Source: Rhizobium sp. Q54
GTDB lineage: Bacteria > Pseudomonadota > Alphaproteobacteria > Rhizobiales > Beijerinckiaceae
Reading direction: 5' to 3'
NCBI GenBank assembly: GCA_945875875.1
Contig: CAMCMI010000003.1
Coordinates: 1 to 33,231 of the forward strand
Length of the DNA stretch: 33,231 bases
How positions within the stretch are numbered: the first letter of the stretch is position 1; the number at the start of each line of letters is the position of its first letter. The notes beneath the pieces are model-generated. The model had not been told where the DNA came from. It searched no databases and was given only the letters and a program-made list of their open reading frames with translations. The translations under genes and the position numbers were made by a program. Of the stretch, positions 3,971-24,021 are shown piece by piece.

Positions 3971-5134
3971 TCAGGCGCTCTTCAGCAACCGATAGTCACT
4001 GAGAAATACAATCTCGCCGTCGCAGATCGTCGCTACGACTTCCGCCGATCCAAGGCCATTTCGGCGCATGAGGACGATGTCGCCGCGCGCCCCGTTTGCG
4101 ATGGTTCCTCTGTCGCCAAGTCCTGCTGCGCGTGCAGGGTTTGCCGAAACAAGACCCCAGCCGGTCGCGAGCGGGATTCCAGATTGCGCCTCCAGAACGA
4201 ATGGAGCTTGGGCAAGCGCTGGATAATAATAATCCGAGGCCAGAATCGTGCACCACCCAGCGCGAACCATTTCCGCAGCCGATGGGCAATTCGTATGACT
4301 TCCGCCGCGCAAAACATTAGGCGCGCCAAAGACAATTTCGTCTCCAGCTAACGAGGCCGCCTGCGCTACCTCATTCGTCACGGGAAATTCTGCGATCCCG
4401 ATACCTATTTCACGCAAACGCGTGCGGCTTTCAATATCAAGATCATCGTGGGACAGCGTCGGCACATCAGCAGCCTTTGCTGCAATAGTCAGCCGCCTGA
4501 TCGATCCCGCCACCTCATGTTCCCGGCTTGCGCATTGATCCACGAGCGCAAGAAAAGCCTCTTCCGAGAGCCCTGTCCTGCGCATCATGTCGCCGATTTT
4601 CTCGGGACGATGGCGAACCTTGATCGTACCGGTCAGGTGATCGTTGAATGCAAGCATGTCGATCTTTCCATGCTGCAACCAATCGATAATTTCATCCTCA
4701 GCATCGAGATTGAATGTCTCCTGACGCAGATGAATGCGGTGATCGACAAGGCAGTGCGGACGTACGCTCTCCACCGCGCCAACGAATATGCGCGCTGACT
4801 CGGCCCCGCGGAAGCCGGGCTCCCACGACCATGTCAGGCCATGAAAGGCCGTTGTGACGCCGTTTGCCGCAAGCTGTCGATCAGTATCCCTTAGCGCGAT
4901 GTTCATATCGAAGCGGACGTTTGGACGCGGCATGATTTGACGCTCGAATGCATCGCCATGGATATCTATGGCGCCGGGAAGCGCAAGGAGCCCGGCTGCG
5001 TCCAGCACCATGTGCGCAGAATCGGCGGGCGGATCCAAATGCACACCAGCGCCAGTCTGCGCGCGTGAGACGCCAATGTCGCAACGCTCGAACCCGCTTT
5101 CGAGCAGAACGTCGCTTCCCTTGATAACCAGCAT
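3971..5134 (-). CDS. phnM: PhnM-family amidohydrolase (alpha-D-ribose 1-methylphosphonate 5-triphosphate diphosphatase-like)
   Basis: PGAIDIHGDAFERQIMPRPNVRFDMNIALRDTDRQLAANGVTTAFHG and later ASDYYYPA / NPARAAGLGDRG motifs; divergent from phnDCE. Confidence 0.88.
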   Translation of the reverse strand: MLVIKGSDVLLESGFERCDIGVSRAQTGAGVHLDPPADSAHMVLDAAGLLALPGAIDIHGDAFERQIMPRPNVRFDMNIALRDTDRQLAANGVTTAFHGLTWSWEPGFRGAESARIFVGAVESVRPHCLVDHRIHLRQETFNLDAEDEIIDWLQHGKIDMLAFNDHLTGTIKVRHRPEKIGDMMRRTGLSEEAFLALVDQCASREHEVAGSIRRLTIAAKAADVPTLSHDDLDIESRTRLREIGIGIAEFPVTNEVAQAASLAGDEIVFGAPNVLRGGSHTNCPSAAEMVRAGWCTILASDYYYPALAQAPFVLEAQSGIPLATGWGLVSANPARAAGLGDRGTIANGARGDIVLMRRNGLGSAEVVATICDGEIVFLSDYRLLKSA

Positions 5135-5176
5135 GCAAAACCTCGCAAACATCATGCGACCTGCATAATGCGTGCA

Positions 5177-5194
5177 TTTGACAAAATGACGACA
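5177..5194 (-). promoter_or_regulatory. candidate Pho box oriented toward phnM
   Basis: Minus strand TGTCGTC-ATTT-TGTCAAA: two TGTC cores exactly 11 bp apart, 43 bp from the phnM ATG. Confidence 0.45.
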
Positions 5195-5206
5195 CAACAG
5201 CTGGCG

Positions 5207-5224
5207 CCGTCATATCGGTGTAGC
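5207..5224 (+). promoter_or_regulatory. candidate Pho box oriented toward phnD
   Basis: CCGTCAT-ATCG-GTGTAGC resembles CTGTCAT-N4-CTGTAAC (6/7 and 5/7); about 52 bp upstream of the phnD ATG. Confidence 0.4.
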
Positions 5225-5275
5225 AATTCATGTCTAGCGAAGCGCTATTATTATCCGCCATGGAAAGTCGGGGGT

Positions 5276-6163
5276 ATGAAAATGGGTTTTCGCTTTGCTG
5301 CTGCTGCGTTCGCCGTGATCGCTTCCATATCTGTCCTTCCTGCGCACAATGCGGCTCTTGCGCAGGAGCGTCTGCGCTTTGCGGTGACGGACGTGGAAGG
5401 TCTCGAAGGTCTTCAACGTGAATATGGCCCATTTAAAAGCGCTTTCGAAAAAGCTTCGGGCATGAAGCTCGACCTGTTTCCTGTATCCGGTCGCACCGCT
5501 GCCGTTGAGGCCATGGCTGCGGATCAAATAGACCTCGTTCTGACAGGGCCAGCTGAATACGTTGTTTTCCATGCCCGCTTAAAAGCGCAGCCTGTCGTAT
5601 CCTGGGGACGTCCTGATTATTATTCGCAAGTGGTTGTACTTGAGAATGGACCTATTCGCTCAAGCGGCGATCTGAAAGGCAAGAAAGTCTCTTTTGGCGA
5701 GATCGGCTCAACCTCCCAGCACCTTGGCCCGGCGCAACTTCTGCGTGACGCAGGACTTGTTCACGGCTCCGATTACGAGCCGGTTTACCTGAAGTTGGTT
5801 GTCGCCATTGAAGCGATGATCCGCGGTGATCTGGCGGCGGTTGGCATGAACAGAACGCATCTTGAGCGTGTTGTGAAGGCCTATCCTGATCGTCAATTCA
5901 AGATTTTGTACAAAAGCGCTCCGCTTCCCAACGATCTGATTATCGCTTCGCCGAAACTGAAGGCGGAGACCGTCAAAAAGATCCGGGCGGCGTTTGTCGA
6001 CAATGCAGATTCCATCATGAAGGCGGTCATTTCGACTTCTGAGAACGCAAAATTCGTCGGCGGCGCCTTCGGAGCCGAGCTGAATGACAGAGACTATGAC
6101 CCGGTTCGCATGATGTTCCGCGCCGTGAATGTCAATGAATTCACGAAATTCATAGGCAATTAA
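5276..6163 (+). CDS. phnD: phosphonate-type ABC transporter substrate-binding protein
   Basis: Signal peptide MKMGFRFAAAAFAVIASISVLPAHNAALAQ; PhnD-like core (DQIDLVLTGPAEYVV, DLKGKKVSFGEIGSTSQHLGP); followed by phnC and phnE. Confidence 0.88.
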   Translation: MKMGFRFAAAAFAVIASISVLPAHNAALAQERLRFAVTDVEGLEGLQREYGPFKSAFEKASGMKLDLFPVSGRTAAVEAMAADQIDLVLTGPAEYVVFHARLKAQPVVSWGRPDYYSQVVVLENGPIRSSGDLKGKKVSFGEIGSTSQHLGPAQLLRDAGLVHGSDYEPVYLKLVVAIEAMIRGDLAAVGMNRTHLERVVKAYPDRQFKILYKSAPLPNDLIIASPKLKAETVKKIRAAFVDNADSIMKAVISTSENAKFVGGAFGAELNDRDYDPVRMMFRAVNVNEFTKFIGN

Positions 6164-6167
6164 AGTT

Positions 6168-6965
6168 GTGAACGCACTGGTATTGAACTGTCCCGGATCG
6201 GCTGTAGAAACGACCATACCGCCGCTTCGCGTTCGCAACCTCGCAGTCTCGTTTGGCGCCAAGCGCATCTTCGACGGCATCGACCTTGATGTCGCCGAAG
6301 GTGAGGCGGTTTCGTTGATAGGCGGTAACGGCAGCGGGAAATCGACGCTCTTGCGCTGCATTGTCCGGCTCGTTGAGCCAACGGAAGGATCGATATTGAT
6401 CCGCGGACAGGACGTGCTGGGCTTGCGCGGAGAGGGATTGAGGCGCGCGCGATCCGGAATTGGATTCGTATTCCAGAAGCATAATCTTGTTCCGCGCCTG
6501 TCGGCTCTGTCCAATGTTTTGCATGGGGCGCAGGCGCGCGCAAAAGGTCCCGGGGTATGGTTTCAATCGCTGGCAAGTTCGCAAATGCGCGACGAGGCGA
6601 TGACATGGCTGGAAGCGGTGGGGCTTCTGCCGCAGGCTCTGCAACGCGTCGATAGTTTGTCAGGCGGCCAATCGCAAAGGGTCGCGATTGCGCGCATGCT
6701 GATGCAACGTCCAAAGCTCGTACTTGTCGATGAGCCAGACGCCAGCCTTGATCCCAAGACAGGCAGAGAGGTGATGGAATTGCTGCATCGTCTTGCGAAG
6801 GCCAAAGGCGTTCCAATTCTCATCGTCTCACATCGCCTCGAACATGTGAAAAGTTATTCTGATCGCATCATTGGCCTGGCGAGCGGGCGCGTTGCTTTGA
6901 ACGTCGAGTCCGGGTTGGCTGATCCTGCAAGCTTGCGCAGCTTTTTTGAGGACGCTGTATCGTGA
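6168..6965 (+). CDS. phnC: phosphonate-type ABC transporter ATP-binding protein
   Basis: Walker A GGNGSGKSTLLR, signature LSGGQSQRVAIARML, Walker B LVLVDEPDASLD; GTG start; PhnC context. Confidence 0.9.
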   Translation: MNALVLNCPGSAVETTIPPLRVRNLAVSFGAKRIFDGIDLDVAEGEAVSLIGGNGSGKSTLLRCIVRLVEPTEGSILIRGQDVLGLRGEGLRRARSGIGFVFQKHNLVPRLSALSNVLHGAQARAKGPGVWFQSLASSQMRDEAMTWLEAVGLLPQALQRVDSLSGGQSQRVAIARMLMQRPKLVLVDEPDASLDPKTGREVMELLHRLAKAKGVPILIVSHRLEHVKSYSDRIIGLASGRVALNVESGLADPASLRSFFEDAVS

Positions 6966-7771
6966 CTGACGCCTCGCGTTCCATCTCGCCGCGCCCCGCC
7001 ATTCCTCGCTTTGAGCGCCCAAGCGCCGGCGCTTTTATAGTCTGGGTCATCGTCATCGGGCTTGCCGTTTGGTCGGTGGGCGGCGTTGGCTTGTCGCCTG
7101 AACGTCTTGCGCGCGGGCTTCCCGCGCTCGGCGGCATTCTAAACCGCATGTTCCCGCCCGACCTTGAGCGATTGCCGCAAATACTGTGGTCTTTGCTCGT
7201 CACATTTCAGATGGCTGCCGCCGGAGCTGTGCTGGGGCTCATCCTCGCATTTCCCCTGGCAGCTCTGGCGGCGGAGGGCGTATCCCCGCATCCTGTTGTG
7301 CGGCAAGCCGCGCGTGCTCTCATCGCCTTGTTTCGCACGGTCCCGGATCTCGTTTGGGCTCTCCTGTTTGTGATCGCCGTTGGCCTTGGCCCGCCCGCTG
7401 GCGTGCTCGCTATCATGGTGGACAAAATAGGGTTTGCCGGACGTTTTTTCGCTGAGGCTATGGAAGAGACGGACAAGGGGCCTCGCGAAGCCCTTTCCGC
7501 TCTTGGCGCTTCGCGTATTGATGTTTTGGTCTGCGCGATTGTGCCACAAGCGATGCCGTCATTCATCGCCACCTCACTTTTCAGTCTTGAAAAAGCAGTG
7601 CGCGGGTCAGTGATTCTGGGCCTTGTAGGCGCAGGCGGCGTTGGCGTGGAGTTGAAGGTCGCATTCGATCTTTTCGCATACAGCACCGCGGCGACAATCA
7701 TCATCTGCATATTCCTGCTGGTCCTTGTCGTCGAGCAAGGCTCTAACTGGATCCGCCGGAAGCTTATTTGA
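6962..7771 (+). CDS. phnE: phosphonate-type ABC transporter permease
   Basis: Multi-TM; PhnE motif RTVPDLVWALLFVIAVGLGPPAGVLAI and EALSALGASRIDVLVCAIVPQ; overlaps phnC by 4 bp. Confidence 0.9.
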   Translation: MTDASRSISPRPAIPRFERPSAGAFIVWVIVIGLAVWSVGGVGLSPERLARGLPALGGILNRMFPPDLERLPQILWSLLVTFQMAAAGAVLGLILAFPLAALAAEGVSPHPVVRQAARALIALFRTVPDLVWALLFVIAVGLGPPAGVLAIMVDKIGFAGRFFAEAMEETDKGPREALSALGASRIDVLVCAIVPQAMPSFIATSLFSLEKAVRGSVILGLVGAGGVGVELKVAFDLFAYSTAATIIICIFLLVLVVEQGSNWIRRKLI

Positions 7772-8115
7772 ATAGATCAGAACGCCGACGTCCTGAAGTA
7801 AAACAGCAAAGAGTTCGGTCTGGTGAGTCATTTATGATTCCCGGATCCTTCTTTATTTTCCAGTAACGGCGACGCCCTTATCAATTGTCGATGTCGCAGC
7901 CGCAGTCAAAGGCAGCTGCTGGGCATCGACTTTTACTCAGCAAGCGCTGAAGCCTTCGTACGTCTCATATCCCCCTGACGCTCAATCGCGTTACAAAACT
8001 ATACACTTGTTTATGAATCTAAACTTCGCAGACAGGCCCTTATTCATCCAAGCGTCGCAATAATATCAAAATAGCCAAGTATTGGACTCACGCTTAGTAA
8101 AAAACAGGGGGCTCT

Positions 8116-9444
8116 ATGTCTTATCTTCAAACAACTCTGGCCTCAGCAGGCTCGATTCTGGTCTTCGCAAGCGCTTCTTATGCAGCTGACTTGCCGTCCA
8201 GGAAGTCGGCTCCGGTCGAATACGTCAAAGTCTGCAATGCATATGGCGCAGGCTATTTTAACATTCCCGGGTCAGACACCTGTCTGCGGTTGTCGGGCCG
8301 CGTACGTGCCGACTACATGTATATTCCAGGAAAGACGCTTTACAGCGGCGTCAGCAACACTGGCGTCCCCACCGTTTCCTCTCCGTCTGACGCCCAGCAT
8401 CTTCATGGTACGGAAATGCGCGCGCGCCTTTCGTTTGACGCCCGCACGCCCACAAGCCTTGGAACAGTCCAGACTGTCGCCCAATTCCGCATGGCGCGGA
8501 AAGGCGGCGTTTTGCAAAACGCCTCCGCCGCAACTAATACGAGCGCAGGGGTAAGTCTTGAGGCCGCTTACGTACGCTTTGCGGGCTTCACGTTTGGCGC
8601 AGCAAAAGACAACTTTGTCTTCATGGACCCCAAGATCTTCGGCGATGGTTATTGGGCCACGTTCAGCAATGGCGCCAAGCAACTTGCCTATACGGCTACA
8701 TTCGGCGGCGGCTTCTCAGGAACCATCGCTCTGCAAGACCGCGCTGATACGGCCAAAAGCGCCGGATCTGCAGGCGTCAGCAGCACTTATGAGGTTTACA
8801 ATTCAGCCCCGCAGGTCAACGTTAATTTGAACGTCGATCAATCTTGGGGTGCGCTCCAGCTCTCGGGCGCGTACTCCAGCATCTCCCTCAACAAGACAGA
8901 TAATTCCTACGACGAATCGAAGGGCGCATATGCTCTCGGCGCAGGGCTTAAGCTCAATCTGCCAATGCTTGCAAAAGGCGACACACTATGGCTCGCCGCA
9001 AATTTTGCTGATGGCATGTCTGAATACACTTCACTGTGGCTTTCGACGAAAGATGAACGCGGCGTAGGTGGTTTCTTCTCCTCGCTGCGTAGCTATGTCA
9101 CCACGCCGACAGGCATTCAGACCGTAAAGTCGTGGAATGTCGCAGCCGCGCTTGATCATTACTGGGCGTCCCAATATCGATCCACGTTCTTCGCCAGCTA
9201 CACAGGCTTGACGGCGCCCACCGGCGCAAAGACGTCTGCGTGGAACGGATCGGGCTTTTTTGGCGACGCTAACGCGTGGAATGCCGGCGCTAATTTTGTC
9301 TGGATGCCAGCGCGTAATTTTGAAATCGGCGCTGAAGTTATATACAGCCAGATCAAGCAGGACGTGCGCTCAGCAAATCTCTCCGTTTTTGACCGCACCG
9401 ACAGCAATTGGACCGGTCGCCTGCGCGTAGAGCGCAACTTCTAA
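8116..9444 (+). CDS. Rhizobiales-type outer membrane porin
   Basis: AADLPSRKSAPVEYVKVCNAYGAGYFNIPGSDTCLRLSGRVRADYMY N-terminus and aromatic C-terminal beta strand (LRVERNF). Confidence 0.9.
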   Translation: MSYLQTTLASAGSILVFASASYAADLPSRKSAPVEYVKVCNAYGAGYFNIPGSDTCLRLSGRVRADYMYIPGKTLYSGVSNTGVPTVSSPSDAQHLHGTEMRARLSFDARTPTSLGTVQTVAQFRMARKGGVLQNASAATNTSAGVSLEAAYVRFAGFTFGAAKDNFVFMDPKIFGDGYWATFSNGAKQLAYTATFGGGFSGTIALQDRADTAKSAGSAGVSSTYEVYNSAPQVNVNLNVDQSWGALQLSGAYSSISLNKTDNSYDESKGAYALGAGLKLNLPMLAKGDTLWLAANFADGMSEYTSLWLSTKDERGVGGFFSSLRSYVTTPTGIQTVKSWNVAAALDHYWASQYRSTFFASYTGLTAPTGAKTSAWNGSGFFGDANAWNAGANFVWMPARNFEIGAEVIYSQIKQDVRSANLSVFDRTDSNWTGRLRVERNF

Positions 9445-9615: not shown

Positions 9616-10455
9616 ATGCTGAAGCTCCATAAAGTATCAAGAGAATTTGGCTCAACTTTGGCGCTTCGAGACATATCTTTTGATGTGCCCAACGGTCAGT
9701 TTGTTGTTGTCATCGGCCGTTCTGGCGCAGGCAAATCGACTCTGCTGCGCACAATAAACCGCCTCGTGCAACCATCAGCTGGCGATATCAGCTTCGATGG
9801 CTCCTCCGTTCTGAATTTGCGCGGCGACGATTTAAGACGTTGGCGCGCATCCGCCGCCATGATCTTTCAAGGCTTCAATCTCTCATCGCGCCTCAGCGTT
9901 CTGTCAAATGTACTCGTCGGATCAAGCAACGAAACATCGCAAATGCGTCGTCTGGTGGGCTTTTATACGCGAGATGAGAAGTTGCGGGCAGCTGCGCTTC
10001 TTGATGATTTGGGCATGCTTGAGAAAGCCTTTCAGCGCGCTGAAAGCCTTTCAGGTGGCCAGCAACAACGCGTCGCTATTGCACGCGCGCTTATGCAGAA
10101 GCCGAAAATTATCCTGGCCGATGAGCCGATCGCTTCTCTGGATCCGTTGAGCGCGAAAGTCGTGATGGACACGCTGCGCGACATCAACCGAAAGCACGGG
10201 ATCAGTGTTCTGTGCAATCTCCACAGCATAGACACGGCGCGTGAATATGGCGATCGCGTCATCGCATTGCGGGCCGGTGAGCTCGTCTTGGACGCGCCTA
10301 TTTCCGCTCTCGATGATTCTGCGGTGCGCGGCGTTTATGAGAATGCTGAGGAGCATCCGGCGTGCGGAAAGGTCACAAGCTTTTGCGCGCCCGAATTCGT
10401 CACAACAGTTTCTTCGACGGACACCAACACCAGAAAACAGGAACAGGTAGCATGA
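9616..10455 (+). CDS. phnC: phosphonate-type ABC transporter ATP-binding protein (second system)
   Basis: Walker A GRSGAGKSTLLRTINRL, LSGGQQQRVAIARALMQ, ILADEPIASLDP; PhnC-type NLHSIDTAREYGDRVIAL. Confidence 0.92.
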   Translation: MLKLHKVSREFGSTLALRDISFDVPNGQFVVVIGRSGAGKSTLLRTINRLVQPSAGDISFDGSSVLNLRGDDLRRWRASAAMIFQGFNLSSRLSVLSNVLVGSSNETSQMRRLVGFYTRDEKLRAAALLDDLGMLEKAFQRAESLSGGQQQRVAIARALMQKPKIILADEPIASLDPLSAKVVMDTLRDINRKHGISVLCNLHSIDTAREYGDRVIALRAGELVLDAPISALDDSAVRGVYENAEEHPACGKVTSFCAPEFVTTVSSTDTNTRKQEQVA

Positions 10456-11363
10456 ACAGGTCATCAACATTACGACTTGCGTTGGCGGCGGCGACAATTT
10501 TGGTTACCGGTGCGACCGCGCACGCAGATTGGCGCAACACTATTAAGGAAATCGGCTTTGGCGTCATTCCCGTAGAGACGCAGACGCAAACGACGGACTC
10601 GATGGATGACTTTGCGAGATACGCGAGCAAGAAACTTGGCGTCCCGGTCAAGACGTTCACTGCGACTGAATTTATCGGCATCAACAACGCACTGATCGCC
10701 AAACAAATTCACATGGCGTGGACAAGCCCTTCTGCGTACTCGGGATCATGGCTCGATTGTAACAAGTGCGTCGAGCCTCTGGTGACCGCGACGGACAAGG
10801 ATGGCAACCTTGGTTATAATTCGGTTCTTATTGTGAAGACCGACAGTCCTTACACATCGATCGAGGATTTGAAGGGAAAATCTGTTGCGCGCACTGAGCC
10901 CAATTCAAACTCTGGCTTCCTTGTGCCGACGATTGAATTCATCAAGAGGGGAACGCCGATCGAGACTTATTTCAAGTCCCCGGTTTCAGGCGGACACACC
11001 CAGTCTGTTCTTGGATTGCTGCAGGGAACTTATGACGCAGCTTTCACATGGACTACGAAGGGCGACGGCTACGGACAATTGCGCACCATGATGGATCGCG
11101 GGATGTTAAAGCGCGAGCAAATTCGGGTGATCTGGGAATCAAGCATCGTCCCGCCCCCTCCGATCATTGTTCGCTCTGATCTTCCGGAAGATTTAAAGGC
11201 GGATCTGACCAGGCTTTTCGTTGAACTGCACAAGGAAGATATGAAGCTTGCTGAAACCGTCGCGAAAGGCAAAACGCAGGGCTTTGTTCCGGTCAAGCAC
11301 GAAGTTTATCAGAGCACAGTCGATATGCGCATTCAATTGCGCGACAACCGCCGCCAGCGTTGA
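10452..11363 (+). CDS. phnD: phosphonate-type ABC transporter substrate-binding protein (second system)
   Basis: Signal peptide; PhnD-like IGFGVIPVETQTQTTDSM, DLKGKSVARTEPNSNSGFLVPTIEF; ATG overlaps the phnC stop. Confidence 0.88.
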   Translation: MNRSSTLRLALAAATILVTGATAHADWRNTIKEIGFGVIPVETQTQTTDSMDDFARYASKKLGVPVKTFTATEFIGINNALIAKQIHMAWTSPSAYSGSWLDCNKCVEPLVTATDKDGNLGYNSVLIVKTDSPYTSIEDLKGKSVARTEPNSNSGFLVPTIEFIKRGTPIETYFKSPVSGGHTQSVLGLLQGTYDAAFTWTTKGDGYGQLRTMMDRGMLKREQIRVIWESSIVPPPPIIVRSDLPEDLKADLTRLFVELHKEDMKLAETVAKGKTQGFVPVKHEVYQSTVDMRIQLRDNRRQR

Positions 11364-11383
11364 TCCTCTGCGTTAAATAATAG

Positions 11384-11413
11384 CGCGCCTCAAAGCTTGA
11401 GCTCTGAGGCGCG
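11384..11413 (+). terminator. intra-operon stem-loop between phnD and phnE
   Basis: Perfect CGCGCCTCA/TGAGGCGCG stem with CTTGAGCT loop core; stem shows a compensatory change relative to the hairpin at 9458..9486. Confidence 0.55.
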
Positions 11414-11433
11414 TCTGAAGTTCAGGCAGCAAG

Positions 11434-12342
11434 ATGGCCGTAATGAATTCAGGGATAACCATTTTGATTCAGCCTGAAACACGCGCCGAAGCCCTCGCGG
11501 TCTTCGACAAGACGAGCCAGGCCCATGCGCAATCAAATTTCCGCAAGACCTCACTTGGAATTATTGCCTTTGCTGCTGCAGTCGCGCTGGCGGCTCACGT
11601 CAGCCAATTTGATTTGATGCGCTTGATTACGGGGCTGCCGCGTATTGGAGATTTCCTGTCCGGCATGGTCCCCAGGCTTACTGCGGATAACCTTTGGGCC
11701 GATCTGGTCTATTGGTATTGGGGCCTCGATAAATGGCTTTATTTACTCTGGACGACGTTGATGATGGCGTTGTTTGGTGCTGTCGCCGGCACAACGCTTG
11801 GGGCCATATTCAGTCTTTTTGCAGCGAGAAATCTTGGTGCGCCGCGCTGGTCGGTTTTCTTTGTCAAGCGTATGCTGGAAATCGCCCGCACAGTCCCTGA
11901 TCTTGTGTTCGCTTTAGTATTTCTTTTTGCTTTTGGCCTTGGTCCGCTTGCTGGCGTTCTGGCTATTTCACTTCATACTCTCGGCGCTCAGGGAAAACTG
12001 TTTGCCGAGGTCAACGAGAATGTCGATATGCGGCCGCTTGAAGGCGTTCGAGCATGCGGCGGCTCCTGGCTTGACGAAATGACGGTCGGGCTTCTCCCGC
12101 AGGTTCTTCCCAATTACATCTCTTATACGTTCTGGCGCTTTGAGATTAACGTTCGTAGCGCAACGATCATCGGGTTCGTCGGCGCCGGCGGGATCGGGAT
12201 GGAGCTCTATGAAGCAATCAGCTTGAGTTACTTCGACGACGCAGGCGCAATCCTGTTGCTGGTGTTTATCACCGTCATGCTGATCGACATCGCAAGCGAA
12301 GCTCTGCGTACGAAAATCAGCAACGTTCGCGCTGTGACATAG
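11434..12342 (+). CDS. phnE: phosphonate-type ABC transporter permease (second system, permease 1)
   Basis: ARTVPDLVFALVFLFAFGLGPLAGVLAI, GVRACGGSWLDEMTVGLLPQVLPNYISY, GFVGAGGIGMELYEA. Confidence 0.92.
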   Translation: MAVMNSGITILIQPETRAEALAVFDKTSQAHAQSNFRKTSLGIIAFAAAVALAAHVSQFDLMRLITGLPRIGDFLSGMVPRLTADNLWADLVYWYWGLDKWLYLLWTTLMMALFGAVAGTTLGAIFSLFAARNLGAPRWSVFFVKRMLEIARTVPDLVFALVFLFAFGLGPLAGVLAISLHTLGAQGKLFAEVNENVDMRPLEGVRACGGSWLDEMTVGLLPQVLPNYISYTFWRFEINVRSATIIGFVGAGGIGMELYEAISLSYFDDAGAILLLVFITVMLIDIASEALRTKISNVRAVT

Positions 12343-12354
12343 AAAGACTTTCTG

Positions 12355-13206
12355 ATGAGCGCTTTTGACATAACAACTGCTCTCGACGACAGCGCTGTAA
12401 AGCGGCTTGAGGCTGCGATTGCGCCAGATTGGCGTTCGCGCGCGTTGCGCTGGGCCTATGGGCTTGGATTTACGGCTGTTATGATTTACGCGGCCTATGT
12501 GAGCGAAGTGCTTTCGCCCAAGATTTTCATCGGCCTGCCGAAGCTTGGAGATGCTTTATGGCTGATGCTGCAACCATCCGGTTTTAACTATTTACCGGAA
12601 TTTTTGTGGGCCTTGTGCGAGACAATCGCCATGGCGTTTCTTGGCACGTTGCTGGGCGCAATCGTAGCGCTCTTTCTTGCGATATTTTGTGCAAGGACGA
12701 CCTTTCCGCTCGCAGCCTTCAGGTTTGGCTTCCGCCGCTTTGCAGACGGCATGCGCACTTTCGACCATCTTATCTGGGCGCTTGTGTTCGTGCGCGCTAT
12801 CGGTCTCGGGCCTCTTGCGGGCATTCTTGCAATCGCACTCGTGGACGCGGGTACACTGGCGAAGCTCTATTCCGAAGCGATTGATAACTCGGACCCAAAG
12901 CCGGTTGAGGGCGTGCGCGCGTCGGGCGGCAGCTGGCTGGACGGTTTGCGTATCGGGCTGTTGCCGCAGGTGCTTCCCAATATTCTCTCGTCGACGCTTT
13001 ACATGTGGGAATCCAACACGAGGTCCGCGACTATTCTGGGCATCGTTGGAGCGGGCGGGATTGGCTACCAGCTCGCGGACCGGCTGCGTGTCTACGAATT
13101 TGGTCAAGCCTCTCTCATGATTATCATGATCATTGCTGCCGTATACCTGATCGATATGCTTTCAGGATGGTTGCGGCGGATGCTGATTGGCCGGACGAGC
13201 CGGTGA
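12355..13206 (+). CDS. phnE: phosphonate-type ABC transporter permease (second system, permease 2)
   Basis: FDHLIWALVFVRAIGLGPLAGILAI, GVRASGGSWLDGLRIGLLPQVLPNILS, GIVGAGGIGYQLADRL. Confidence 0.92.
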   Translation: MSAFDITTALDDSAVKRLEAAIAPDWRSRALRWAYGLGFTAVMIYAAYVSEVLSPKIFIGLPKLGDALWLMLQPSGFNYLPEFLWALCETIAMAFLGTLLGAIVALFLAIFCARTTFPLAAFRFGFRRFADGMRTFDHLIWALVFVRAIGLGPLAGILAIALVDAGTLAKLYSEAIDNSDPKPVEGVRASGGSWLDGLRIGLLPQVLPNILSSTLYMWESNTRSATILGIVGAGGIGYQLADRLRVYEFGQASLMIIMIIAAVYLIDMLSGWLRRMLIGRTSR

Positions 13207-13324: not shown

Positions 13325-13353
13325 TTTTCATAAAATTGTCACCGCACTCTCAT
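13325..13353 (+). promoter_or_regulatory. candidate triple Pho box
   Basis: TTTTCAT-AAAA-TTGTCAC-CGCA-CTCTCAT: three 11-bp-phased units matching CTGTCAT at 5/7, 5-6/7 and 6/7, followed by an AT-rich stretch (ATATTAATAAATAATAAT) before the start. Confidence 0.6.
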
Positions 13354-13376
13354 ATATTAATAAATAATAATAGGGA

Positions 13377-14165
13377 TTGATTGCTTTTGTGACGTGGGCA
13401 AAAATGCCGGCATTGTTGTTTGTTTTATTTGTCTTCGCGAGCGCAGGCGCAGCCGTTTACGTTGATAGTCCCGCCGTCGCCGTCTATGCGCTCAGCTTCT
13501 GGCACTATTACGTTTACTGGCTGGCGTACTTGTTTGGCGCATCGTCTCTGGCTGCGTTCAAACGTGACGCAATCTTGATGAAGAGCGCTTCGATTCTCAT
13601 TCTGGGGTGGGTTTATCTCTCCGCATCGCCCGATATCCTGTCAGTGTGCGTGGTGGCGTCTGGTTTTGCGCTCAACGCTTATGCAGCGCTCGTCCTTGGT
13701 TCGGACCGCACCTATTACGGCTATGAAATTGGCGCACTTCCCTTACGCCGGATCACATCGTTTCCTTATTCCATCACCGCGTACCCGATGTTGATCGGCA
13801 ATATCATCGGCTTCGGCGGCGCCCTGATCGACGCAGATTTTCGCGCGCATTGGTGGCCGCTTGCAATCGCGCATGGTGCGTTGAACATCAGTCTTCTGAT
13901 CATGGAGATGACCATAAGCGCCGGATCAGGGCGGGCGCGCACCGCTCAATCCAGCTCTGTTGCAGGGCGATTTTTCATCGGCTTGATCGGGCTGTCGGTG
14001 AGCGCGGCCATCGGTTACGCGGCTCCCGAGCCTCTTGGACCAACGATTGGGGCCCTGCTCGGCGCCGTCATCTTCCTTCACGCCTTTGCCCTTTATGACC
14101 GCTATTGCTTGGGCGCGGGGGCACGTTTCGAAAACCACAGCAGCGGCAACAGGAGCGTTACATGA
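13377..14165 (+). CDS. PEMT/phospholipid-methyltransferase-like integral membrane protein
   Basis: Multi-TM ORF with GSDRTYYGYEIGALPLRRITSFPYSITAYPMLIGNIIGFGGALI, resembling the eukaryotic-type PEMT core (LG..GTFLGDYFGI...V..FPFNI..NPMYWGS). Start uncertain (TTG 13377 or ATG 13404). Confidence 0.65.
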   Translation: MIAFVTWAKMPALLFVLFVFASAGAAVYVDSPAVAVYALSFWHYYVYWLAYLFGASSLAAFKRDAILMKSASILILGWVYLSASPDILSVCVVASGFALNAYAALVLGSDRTYYGYEIGALPLRRITSFPYSITAYPMLIGNIIGFGGALIDADFRAHWWPLAIAHGALNISLLIMEMTISAGSGRARTAQSSSVAGRFFIGLIGLSVSAAIGYAAPEPLGPTIGALLGAVIFLHAFALYDRYCLGAGARFENHSSGNRSVT

Positions 14166-15010
14166 ATTCTGCAGCGCACGTCACGAACGGACACATGCGG
14201 CTTGGCGACGAGGAAAAATCGTCCCGTTTGTTCATTGCGAGCGTCGGCAGTTTTGAGGACCCCGCAAGCCGCGGGACCATCGATGCGCTCGTAGGCTGGG
14301 TTGAAGATCACTACCGCGAAGACCTGCTCAACCGACCGTCAAAGCACGTCTATGTGCGAAAGCTGCCAGCTTCAGCGATCAAACAAATCGACCTTCTGCG
14401 CAACAGCTCCATCATCCACGCGCAAATCCTGCGACAGTTTCCAGAAGGCCACGTGATAACGCCCATGGCGCATACAGATGAGCTTTACATCTCCCACTAC
14501 AATAAGGATCGTGGCGGAGATCAGGGACTTTACGACAAGCATTACGACGGGAATTTACGCTTTCTCTCCTATGGCTCAGTCGTGCGCGCATTGATCTACC
14601 TGCAATCGGACGCCACCTATAAGGTCGTATTCCACGACAGCGGGATCGAAAAGGCATTCGTCACCTACGATTTCGGTCTGCTTGATTTTCATCGCGAACT
14701 GCATTGGGTCGAGGGCGAATACAATCCCGCCGACCAGCAGCGGATACTTTTGAAGTGCAATTATCTGGTCACGCCACGTCACGGCGGCTTTGCAGCGCAG
14801 GCCGTTAACGCCGCCAACACAATGGTCTTCTACGTGGTGAAAGCCGCGATGGAATATTCGAAGAGCCCGCGCAATCTGCCCCAACGGTTTGTCGGCCTGC
14901 TGTGCAATCTCTTCCGGACGCTCAACAACGTCCATCCCCTGATACCGCTGGCCCTGGTCGCGGGAACCCTCGCGCTGACGGGATGGCTGGCGTATCGCCT
15001 GACGCCCTGA
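14162..15010 (+). CDS. 2OG-Fe(II)-oxygenase-like protein with C-terminal transmembrane segment
   Basis: Candidate facial triad H127-Y-D129 ... H181 with R194 (KHYDGNLRF...VRALIYLQ...LHWVEGEYNPADQQRILLKCNY); C-terminal hydrophobic helix PLIPLALVAGTLALTGWLAY; overlaps the upstream gene by 4 bp (ATGA). Confidence 0.6.
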   Translation: MNSAAHVTNGHMRLGDEEKSSRLFIASVGSFEDPASRGTIDALVGWVEDHYREDLLNRPSKHVYVRKLPASAIKQIDLLRNSSIIHAQILRQFPEGHVITPMAHTDELYISHYNKDRGGDQGLYDKHYDGNLRFLSYGSVVRALIYLQSDATYKVVFHDSGIEKAFVTYDFGLLDFHRELHWVEGEYNPADQQRILLKCNYLVTPRHGGFAAQAVNAANTMVFYVVKAAMEYSKSPRNLPQRFVGLLCNLFRTLNNVHPLIPLALVAGTLALTGWLAYRLTP

Positions 15011-15022
15011 GGGCTGGCAGGA

Positions 15023-15050
15023 AGACCGCCCGTTTGAAGCCGGGCGTCTT
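15023..15050 (+). terminator. intrinsic terminator-like hairpin after the PEMT/2OG operon
   Basis: AGACCGCCCG-tttgaagc-CGGGCGTCTT followed by TCTAATTTCT. Confidence 0.5.
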
Positions 15051-16364: not shown

Positions 16365-16381
16365 TTGGTAGGCCGGGAGGG
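16365..16381. repeat. direct repeat copy 2 (att-like) within the tRNA 3' end
   Basis: TTGGTAGGCCGGGAGGG, identical to 15094..15110. Confidence 0.8.
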
Positions 16382-16441
16382 AATCGAACCCCCAACCAGA
16401 CCGTTATGAGCGGTCGGCTCTAACCGTTGAGCTACCGGCCC
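16366..16441 (-). tRNA. tRNA with CAT anticodon (Ile2 or Met), CCA encoded
   Basis: GGGCCGGTAGCTCAACGGTTAGAGCCGACCGCTCATAACGGTCTGGTTGGGGGTTCGATTCCCTCCCGGCCTACCA folds as a cloverleaf; anticodon loop CTCATAA. Confidence 0.93.
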
Positions 16442-22210: not shown

Positions 22211-22528
22211 GGGAGATTTTGGCTCGCGCTGAGACCGATCAATAGAGCGTCCGCAATCTTATGGAACAAAGATGAAACGCTTGTGCCCGTTATCCACAGG
22301 CAACGCGGATATTTACATAAGCTTGGCTAAACGTATATACAGACGTCATTGATTTTTCAGTTTTGAGCCAGATCCTGAATTTATCGTTTGAATGGGATGC
22401 GGAAAGAACCGCGCCACCGGGCCGGACGCGGGCATATATTTTGTGCGTCGCCTTCCCCAAGGTAATTAACAACAGCTCAACAGTAAGGCGCTAGTTTGCG
22501 ATCACGCAATCAACGTCGAGCTTGCCCT

Positions 22529-23662
22529 ATGCGCGCACCCAACACGATAGATTTCTGGCGCGGAATTGCATTGATGGAAATCCTCATCAATCACATTCCC
22601 GGCAACAGCCTGTCGCGCTTTACGCATCGGCAGTATGGCTGGTCTGACGCTGCTGAAGTGCTGATTTTCCTCGCCGGACTGGCGCTGGCCATGCGTTGCG
22701 GGAAAGGTTCTCCGGGCGGCGAGTGGCGCCGCGTGCTCAACATTTATGTTTGGTACGTCGCGTTTTCGCTGGTCCTGATTTGCGTCTATTCCATCGCATA
22801 TCTCAACGGTCAATCTGCTATTCTCAGTGACAATCGCACGATGCTTCCCAATGCGGAAACAATTGCGGGCGTAGTGCTTCTCTCCCATCAATTGCGCTAT
22901 TTCGATATTCTGCCGCTCTATATTGTTTCGTTTGCGATGGGCCCGCTGATCGCCTGGCTCGCGCGCAATAACCTAGCCGCGCTGGTGTGTTCCTCGTTCG
23001 CGCTTTACGCCGCCACCCGCATGTGGGGATTTGGCCTGCCCGCGTGGCCGGGGACGGGCGTCTGGTATTTCAATCCGTTCGCATGGCAGGCTTTGTTCGT
23101 GATCGGCTATGTTTGCGGCGTAAAGCGCGAGGCCCTCGCGCGCTTGATGGAAAGCCGCGCGCTGCTTGTGGCTGCGAGTATCGTTCTGGTGGTCGCCTTC
23201 GTCGCGATGCTGGCGGGCGTGCCCAATGAGCGCGTGCATGAGCGAACGGCGGTGGAGCTGGCGTTCTGGGGCAAGTCTTCGCTTGGCCCCGCGCGGATAT
23301 TGCACTTTCTGGCGTTGGCGCTGGTGGTTGCGCGCGTGGGCCGCTTTATCTTGCCGATGTTTCCGCTGGCGTGGACTTACGGCTCGATGCTGGGGCGCTA
23401 CGCCATGCCGACGTTCTGCTTTGGCGCCCTGTTCAGCGCATTGGCCCAGATTGCGAGCAATGCGGGCCTGCGCGGCATAGCGGTGGACGCTCCGTTTTTC
23501 CTGGTCTCTGCTTCCGTGCTGCTCGCAATCGCGTCGTTTTTGCGCGCCAGAAGGCGACGCGCGTTCATGGCCGCGGCTCTTCCCGCGCACGGCAAGTTCG
23601 AGGCGTTCGAGTTTTCAAAGCCGGATAAAAGCGCCAGCCGGCCTGTAAGCCGGGTTCTGTAG
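22529..23662 (+). CDS. opgC: OpgC-like acyltransferase family membrane protein
   Basis: TIDFWRGIALMEILINHIPGNSLSRFTHRQYGWSDAAEVLIFLAGLALA, typical OpgC N-terminus; multiple TM segments. Confidence 0.85.
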   Translation: MRAPNTIDFWRGIALMEILINHIPGNSLSRFTHRQYGWSDAAEVLIFLAGLALAMRCGKGSPGGEWRRVLNIYVWYVAFSLVLICVYSIAYLNGQSAILSDNRTMLPNAETIAGVVLLSHQLRYFDILPLYIVSFAMGPLIAWLARNNLAALVCSSFALYAATRMWGFGLPAWPGTGVWYFNPFAWQALFVIGYVCGVKREALARLMESRALLVAASIVLVVAFVAMLAGVPNERVHERTAVELAFWGKSSLGPARILHFLALALVVARVGRFILPMFPLAWTYGSMLGRYAMPTFCFGALFSALAQIASNAGLRGIAVDAPFFLVSASVLLAIASFLRARRRRAFMAAALPAHGKFEAFEFSKPDKSASRPVSRVL

Positions 23663-24021
23663 GGCTGCGCCGCAAGCGACGCAACGTGACGGCCATTCCT
23701 CTGGGACAATCGTTACCGACCGCCTCAAGCAACCAACCCGGACGACAACCCGGAGCGGGCCCAACGCCTTGCGGCGCTGTGTCGTCCCTATTTGGTCTTG
23801 CTCCCGGTGGGGCTTGCCATGCCGCGCCCGTTGCCGGCCGCGCGGTGCGCTCTTACCGCACCTTTTCACCCTTACCTGCCCGGAAGTCTCCCTCCGGCAG
23901 GCGGTTCAATCTCTGTGGCGCTTTCCCTGGGGTCGCCCCCGCCGGACGTTATCCGGCACCGTTTCTCCGTGGAGCCCGGACTTTCCTCTGTCGCAAGACA
24001 GCGGCCGTCCGGCCGACTGGC
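23633..24021 (-). ncRNA. rnpB: RNase P RNA (class A)
   Basis: Minus strand contains GAGGAAAGTCCGGGCTCCACGGAGAAACGGTGCCGGATAACGTCCGGC, GGTAAGGGTGAAAAGGTGCGGTAAGAGCGCACC and 3' ACAGAACCCGGCTTACAGGCCGGCTGGC; ends pair as P1. Confidence 0.96.

Follow-up and report, generated by a model that had tools for sequence, protein, structure and literature searches.

A candidate lipid-modifying gene pair behind a Pho box: a PEMT-like methyltransferase and a membrane-anchored oxygenase of a new family

Proposed function and layout of the gene pair

The 33,231-nt stretch of DNA analysed here (Rhizobium sp. Q54, GCA_945875875.1, contig CAMCMI010000003.1, positions 1–33,231, forward strand; hereafter the window) carries two coupled genes that, on balance, we believe form a small lipid-modifying operon, one that N-methylates and then hydroxylates a membrane aminolipid and is induced by PhoB in the window organism. 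The family, the fold, the catalytic residues, the pairing and the Pho box were all computed. In our assessment the kinds of enzyme are known but this variant of them is uncharacterised, and its oxygenase family is new; a search of the available literature for this pairing of PEMT-like and oxygenase genes found no paper describing it. If the proposal is true, it would introduce two enzymes that jointly modify a lipid, one of them from an oxygenase family that Pfam lacks, and perhaps an undescribed lipid as well.

From these data we infer the lipid substrate, the order of the steps, hydroxylation as the outcome and the induction. The PEMT-like protein would act in the inner membrane and move methyl groups from SAM onto the amino group of a membrane aminolipid, with phosphatidylethanolamine or a close analogue as the likeliest substrate. 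The oxygenase, anchored by its C-terminal helix, would then hydroxylate the same lipid using Fe(II), O2 and 2-oxoglutarate. Under phosphate shortage, phosphorylated PhoB would switch the operon on in the window organism. As a PEMT-like protein and an oxygenase stand together behind the strongest Pho box found in the draft genome, the probable role of the pair is to modify a membrane lipid under phosphate scarcity. Since a methylated phospholipid spares no phosphorus during phosphate starvation, the substrate is possibly a phosphorus-free or phosphonate compound.

The window comes from a 2.83 Mb draft genome that is 77% complete; on the evidence of gene 2, its closest relative is a MAG of an uncultured member of the Rhizobiales. 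The pair is small and tightly linked: as the first-pass annotation had noted, gene 1 and gene 2 overlap by 4 bp (ATGA) at 14162–14165 of the + strand, and the phosphonate transporter operon and three-unit array that it had placed ahead of them were found there as well (Table 1). The TTG opening the gene 1 reading frame lies 170 bases beyond the end of phnCDEE (13206) and leaves almost no leader space downstream of the promoter. The match to the family profile starts at 13389, and the closest relative of gene 1 aligns from about ATG 13404. Because of the cramped leader and the points at which these alignments begin, TTG 13377 is unlikely to be where translation truly starts, and GTG 13389 or ATG 13404 is likelier.

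Table 1. Coordinates of the pair, its putative regulatory elements and neighbouring features (L, locus handle)
Feature	Sequence	Position	Strand	Basis
Gene 1, PEMT-like integral membrane methyltransferase	window	13377–14165	+	PF04191 above cutoff; TTG-started ORF
Gene 2, membrane-anchored 2OG/Fe(II)-oxygenase-like protein, new family	window	14162–15010	+	HxD...H...R, AlphaFold model, Foldseek
Three-unit Pho box	window	13325–13353	+	draft-genome pattern search; shuffled windows
AT-rich segment, expected -10 region of PhoB-activated promoter	window	13354–13370	+	sequence reading; inferred from position relative to box
Intrinsic-terminator-like hairpin with T-rich tail, 3' of gene 2	window	15027–15046	+	consensus match only
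phnC-phnD-phnE-phnE phosphonate ABC transporter operon (context, outside pair)	window	9616–13206	+	TIGR02315, TIGR03431/TIGR01098, TIGR01097
phnM	window	3971-5197		
Aminotransferase, PS decarboxylase and Mpo1-like trio	L054	8320-11636		
Aminotransferase, PS decarboxylase and Mpo1-like trio	L011	10872-14093		

The two proteins and their near-obligate pairing

The gene 1 product had been described as polytopic and PEMT-like, and both points held. It is polytopic, its score of 27.4 bits against PF04191 (PEMT) exceeds the gathering cutoff of 25, the Pfam search gave no competing family, and PF04191 is matched by 41/41 aligned family members (E<=0.01). Residues R111, Y114, G115, E117, F129, P130, P137, M138, G141, H166 and E177 are among those invariant in the family. 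The conserved RTYYG, FPY, HPM and terminal Glu motifs probably resemble the core of the eukaryotic PEMT. The structure model is all-helical (pLDDT 83.6) and gave no significant Foldseek match among solved structures, so the family support comes from the sequence profile only. Membership of PF04191, itself a profile assignment, leaves the substrate of the methylation unfixed.

For gene 2, neither the single sequence nor the family profile had a match in Pfam or NCBIfam or a credible one among PDB sequences, and on these searches a known family was rejected. Against Pfam nothing was found up to E = 10, and the 47 members of the family gave only scattered, weak and unrelated matches. The Asp/Arg hydroxylase family PF05118, to which OlsC and LpxO belong, was also without a match in this search. 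The oxygenase family of gene 2 is thus new and absent from Pfam, and its mean column identity of 66% looks like strong constraint for a family without a name.

Folding pointed to the class of this protein. The AlphaFold2 model of gene 2, built from the 47-sequence alignment (pLDDT 84.8, pTM 0.83), has P3H1, PHD2 and further 2-oxoglutarate oxygenases as its top solved Foldseek matches. Their E-values run from 9e-6 to 8e-4 at probabilities of 0.99-1.00, and the TM-scores are modest, reaching 0.56 at most. Viral 2OG oxygenases are also among the structural matches. A search for the double-stranded beta-helix fold in such a model had been proposed in the first-pass annotation, and the matches to P3H1 and PHD2 bear the fold out. 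The HxD...H...R motif had been read correctly, at H127/D129/H181/R194: the two histidines and the aspartate are invariant in 47/47 members and R194 is present in all 46 readable rows of the 47. In the model H181 lies within strand 180-184 and R194 is the first residue of strand 194-205, and these are the positions at which a 2OG oxygenase should carry its distal histidine and the arginine that binds 2OG. The C-terminal TM helix that had been suggested is predicted at residues 260-278, and likewise in each of the 47 family members. Gene 2 is therefore well matched, as a prediction, by an Fe(II)/2OG dioxygenase with a double-stranded beta-helix fold.

Pairing of the two genes was followed in a scan of one genome per species, which yielded 50 loci with gene 2 relatives of 57-78% identity. 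The PEMT gene lies directly upstream of the oxygenase gene in 45 of these and is convergent to it in one (L049); the remaining four are cut by contig ends. In other words, the genes adjoin in 46/46 loci with room on the contig, which answers the co-occurrence test that had been suggested earlier. The 4-bp overlap is possible in 32 of the 45 same-strand pairs. L049 holds the most divergent gene 2 relative, and since its PEMT gene is convergent yet adjoining, adjacency survives rearrangement. Pairwise distances of gene 1 and gene 2 proteins are correlated (r = 0.89, 41 loci). Both genes occurred in the same 4 of 395 alphaproteobacterial genomes (at most six candidates per genome scored for gene 1), and in a wider phylum search of 399 genomes the gene 2 profile matched only the window's own genome. 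Taken together, the comparisons support a near-obligate pairing across genomes and a pair spread over rare bacterial lineages. A plasmid search gave no match, and plasmid carriage was rejected.

At L049 (10758-12358) there is a further gene that the PEMT gene overlaps by four bases and whose product has an HxD...H...R motif by eye. This extra protein had no Pfam match and no significant similarity to gene 2 in a profile comparison.

Pho box, neighbouring genes and alternative readings

The array upstream of gene 1 consists of three 7-base units with an 11-bp period (TTTTCAT-AAAA-TTGTCAC-CGCA-CTCTCAT), the architecture that PhoB boxes share (PMC4415409). A pattern search of the draft genome ranks it first, at 2 mismatches over the 21 specified bases, and none of the shuffled windows reaches its score (0 expected). 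At <=3 mismatches the draft genome holds two occurrences of the pattern, this one and one before a polyphosphate kinase gene (ppk). In other genomes matches precede pstS, phoU, phoX-like and phosphate-porin-like genes (named by reading translations), which validates the pattern. As it also finds the pstS, phoU, phoX-like and ppk promoters, PhoB control of the operon in the window organism is likely and, locally, well supported. The Pho control claimed in the first-pass annotation thus stood for this locus but not for its relatives: the box is not conserved in orthologous loci, where the next best has 5 mismatches over 3 units, and the same-genus locus L006 has only a weak two-unit site. A Pho box as a family-wide trait was rejected, since relatives are without it.

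Many Reyranella loci carry another promoter element, GGTAACN4CTGACACA, upstream of the PEMT gene. Of six genomes searched for it, five had one occurrence each and the other had three; being nearly unique to the pair's promoter in each genome, it was rejected as the site of a broad regulon. Upstream of the PEMT gene in L010, L013, L015, L016, L018, L027, L029, L030, L032, L035 and L051, GGTAACN4CTGACAC is followed by a TTATCGTT-like stretch.

In Reyranella-type loci three further genes recur beside the pair, encoding a class III aminotransferase that seems to carry a membrane segment at its N terminus, a PS decarboxylase (PF02666) and an Mpo1-like protein that falls slightly below the Pfam cutoff. 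The last two point to lipid chemistry, as does the behaviour of the module as a whole. Of 75 Reyranellaceae genomes, 31 have the pair's oxygenase, 34 the aminotransferase and 29 both (odds ratio 113; p = 2e-13, the p-value ignoring shared ancestry). The trio was all-or-nothing across the genomes tested, and in the L031 genome single open frames, of 750 and 762 residues, contain the aminotransferase match together with the Mpo1-like one, which suggests a fusion. Such co-occurrence, the movement of the trio as a unit, the apparent fusion and the closest solved relative of the aminotransferase, a mycosubtilin synthase domain, favour a pair that is the tailoring end of a longer aminolipid pathway, in which the trio builds the amine that is then N-methylated and hydroxylated. 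Yet the window genome, G000, the complete same-genus genome G003 and G029 all lack the trio, and about 21 of the 50 pair genomes lack it too, the aminotransferase included. The aminotransferase is for this reason not essential to the pair, and the trio was rejected as an essential partner. We consider the longer pathway somewhat unlikely. A new aminolipid class is a tentative and rather doubtful proposal: in Reyranellaceae five proteins would make it (the membrane aminotransferase, the PS-decarboxylase paralogue and the Mpo1-like protein, together with the PEMT-like methyltransferase and the new 2OG oxygenase), while the window organism would have a PhoB-induced two-enzyme version acting by methylation and hydroxylation of a lipid in phosphate starvation. 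The trio offers a second entry point to the question, in cultured Reyranella, next to a tightly linked pair behind a strong Pho box in the window organism.

The pair of the window sits in a phosphonate island formed by phnM, a phnDCE set, a porin and then phnCDEE; at 3971-9444, phnM is divergent from a second phnDCE transporter, which is followed by a Porin_2 gene. At L011 a phn cluster also lies beside the pair, with phnC, phnD and phnE assigned by similarity, phnH and phnM by profile, and phnG and phnI by reading. Both loci would suit enzymes that make or dismantle N-methylated aminoethylphosphonate headgroups, either of a phosphonate-bearing lipid or in phosphonate metabolism. Against this, phosphonate genes adjoin the pair in these 2 of about 46 loci, none was seen near the pair at L006 or at the Reyranella loci examined, and no connection to characterised phosphonate hydroxylases emerged, gene 2 having matched none of the known families. 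Adjacency in two loci is suggestive, no more; phn linkage as a general feature was rejected, and we regard a phosphonate role as improbable. The parts and the local Pho box described in the first-pass annotation were borne out, while Pho control and phosphonates as the theme of the pair were too broad. Could the shared target of the two enzymes be something other than a lipid, namely a small molecule, a quinone or a protein? PF04191 by itself would allow it, and protein prolyl hydroxylases are among the structural matches of gene 2, but both are membrane proteins, and their partners, the PS decarboxylase and the Mpo1-like protein, are of lipid type, so we hold a non-lipid substrate to be decidedly unlikely. 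An old, differently regulated pair may also have landed by chance behind a Pho-regulated phosphonate island, with a function unrelated to phosphate. That relatives, L006 included, do not share the box would agree with this; the position of the box directly before the pair's own promoter region, and its rank in the draft genome, argue against it, and we think an incidental association unlikely.

Relation to known systems and other features of the window

The reading that we prefer, PhoB-induced methylation and hydroxylation of a membrane aminolipid, resembles several known systems in part. Gene 1 is like PEMT/Opi3 (PF04191) in its membrane topology and motifs and differs in being bacterial and always paired with an oxygenase gene. 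Gene 2 is like OlsC/LpxO in concept only, as a dioxygenase-type route to lipid hydroxylation, but it belongs to a conserved family of its own with a C-terminal TM helix. It shares the modelled fold and the HxD...H...R motif with PHD2/P3H1, from which it differs by its 12-16% identity, its termini and its membrane anchor. With PmtA of A. tumefaciens and S. meliloti, gene 1 may share the N-methylation of PE in alphaproteobacteria (PMC3972451); PmtA is a small peripheral enzyme (PMC3972451), whereas gene 1 encodes an integral protein whose one match is PF04191. Pho-controlled lipid genes have a known precedent: PhoB in S. meliloti drives the swap of phospholipids for phosphorus-free lipids (PMC3972451). 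The window operon would share PhoB control of membrane-lipid genes with btaAB and other rhizobial lipid-remodelling genes (PMC3972451), but its enzymes differ and its PhoB control is not conserved in relatives. No ornithine or betaine lipid pathway genes (OlsBA, BtaAB) were recognised within the window.

Two further features of the window were seen downstream of the pair. Next to a tRNA-Met gene (16366-16441), the segment 15156-16909 encodes an orphan protein of HSDR_N type and a fragment of a Type ISP specificity domain, which may be what is left of restriction systems. An OpgC-like gene (22496-23662, +) and the gene of a class A RNase P RNA (23630-24020, -) overlap slightly on opposite strands (22496-24020).
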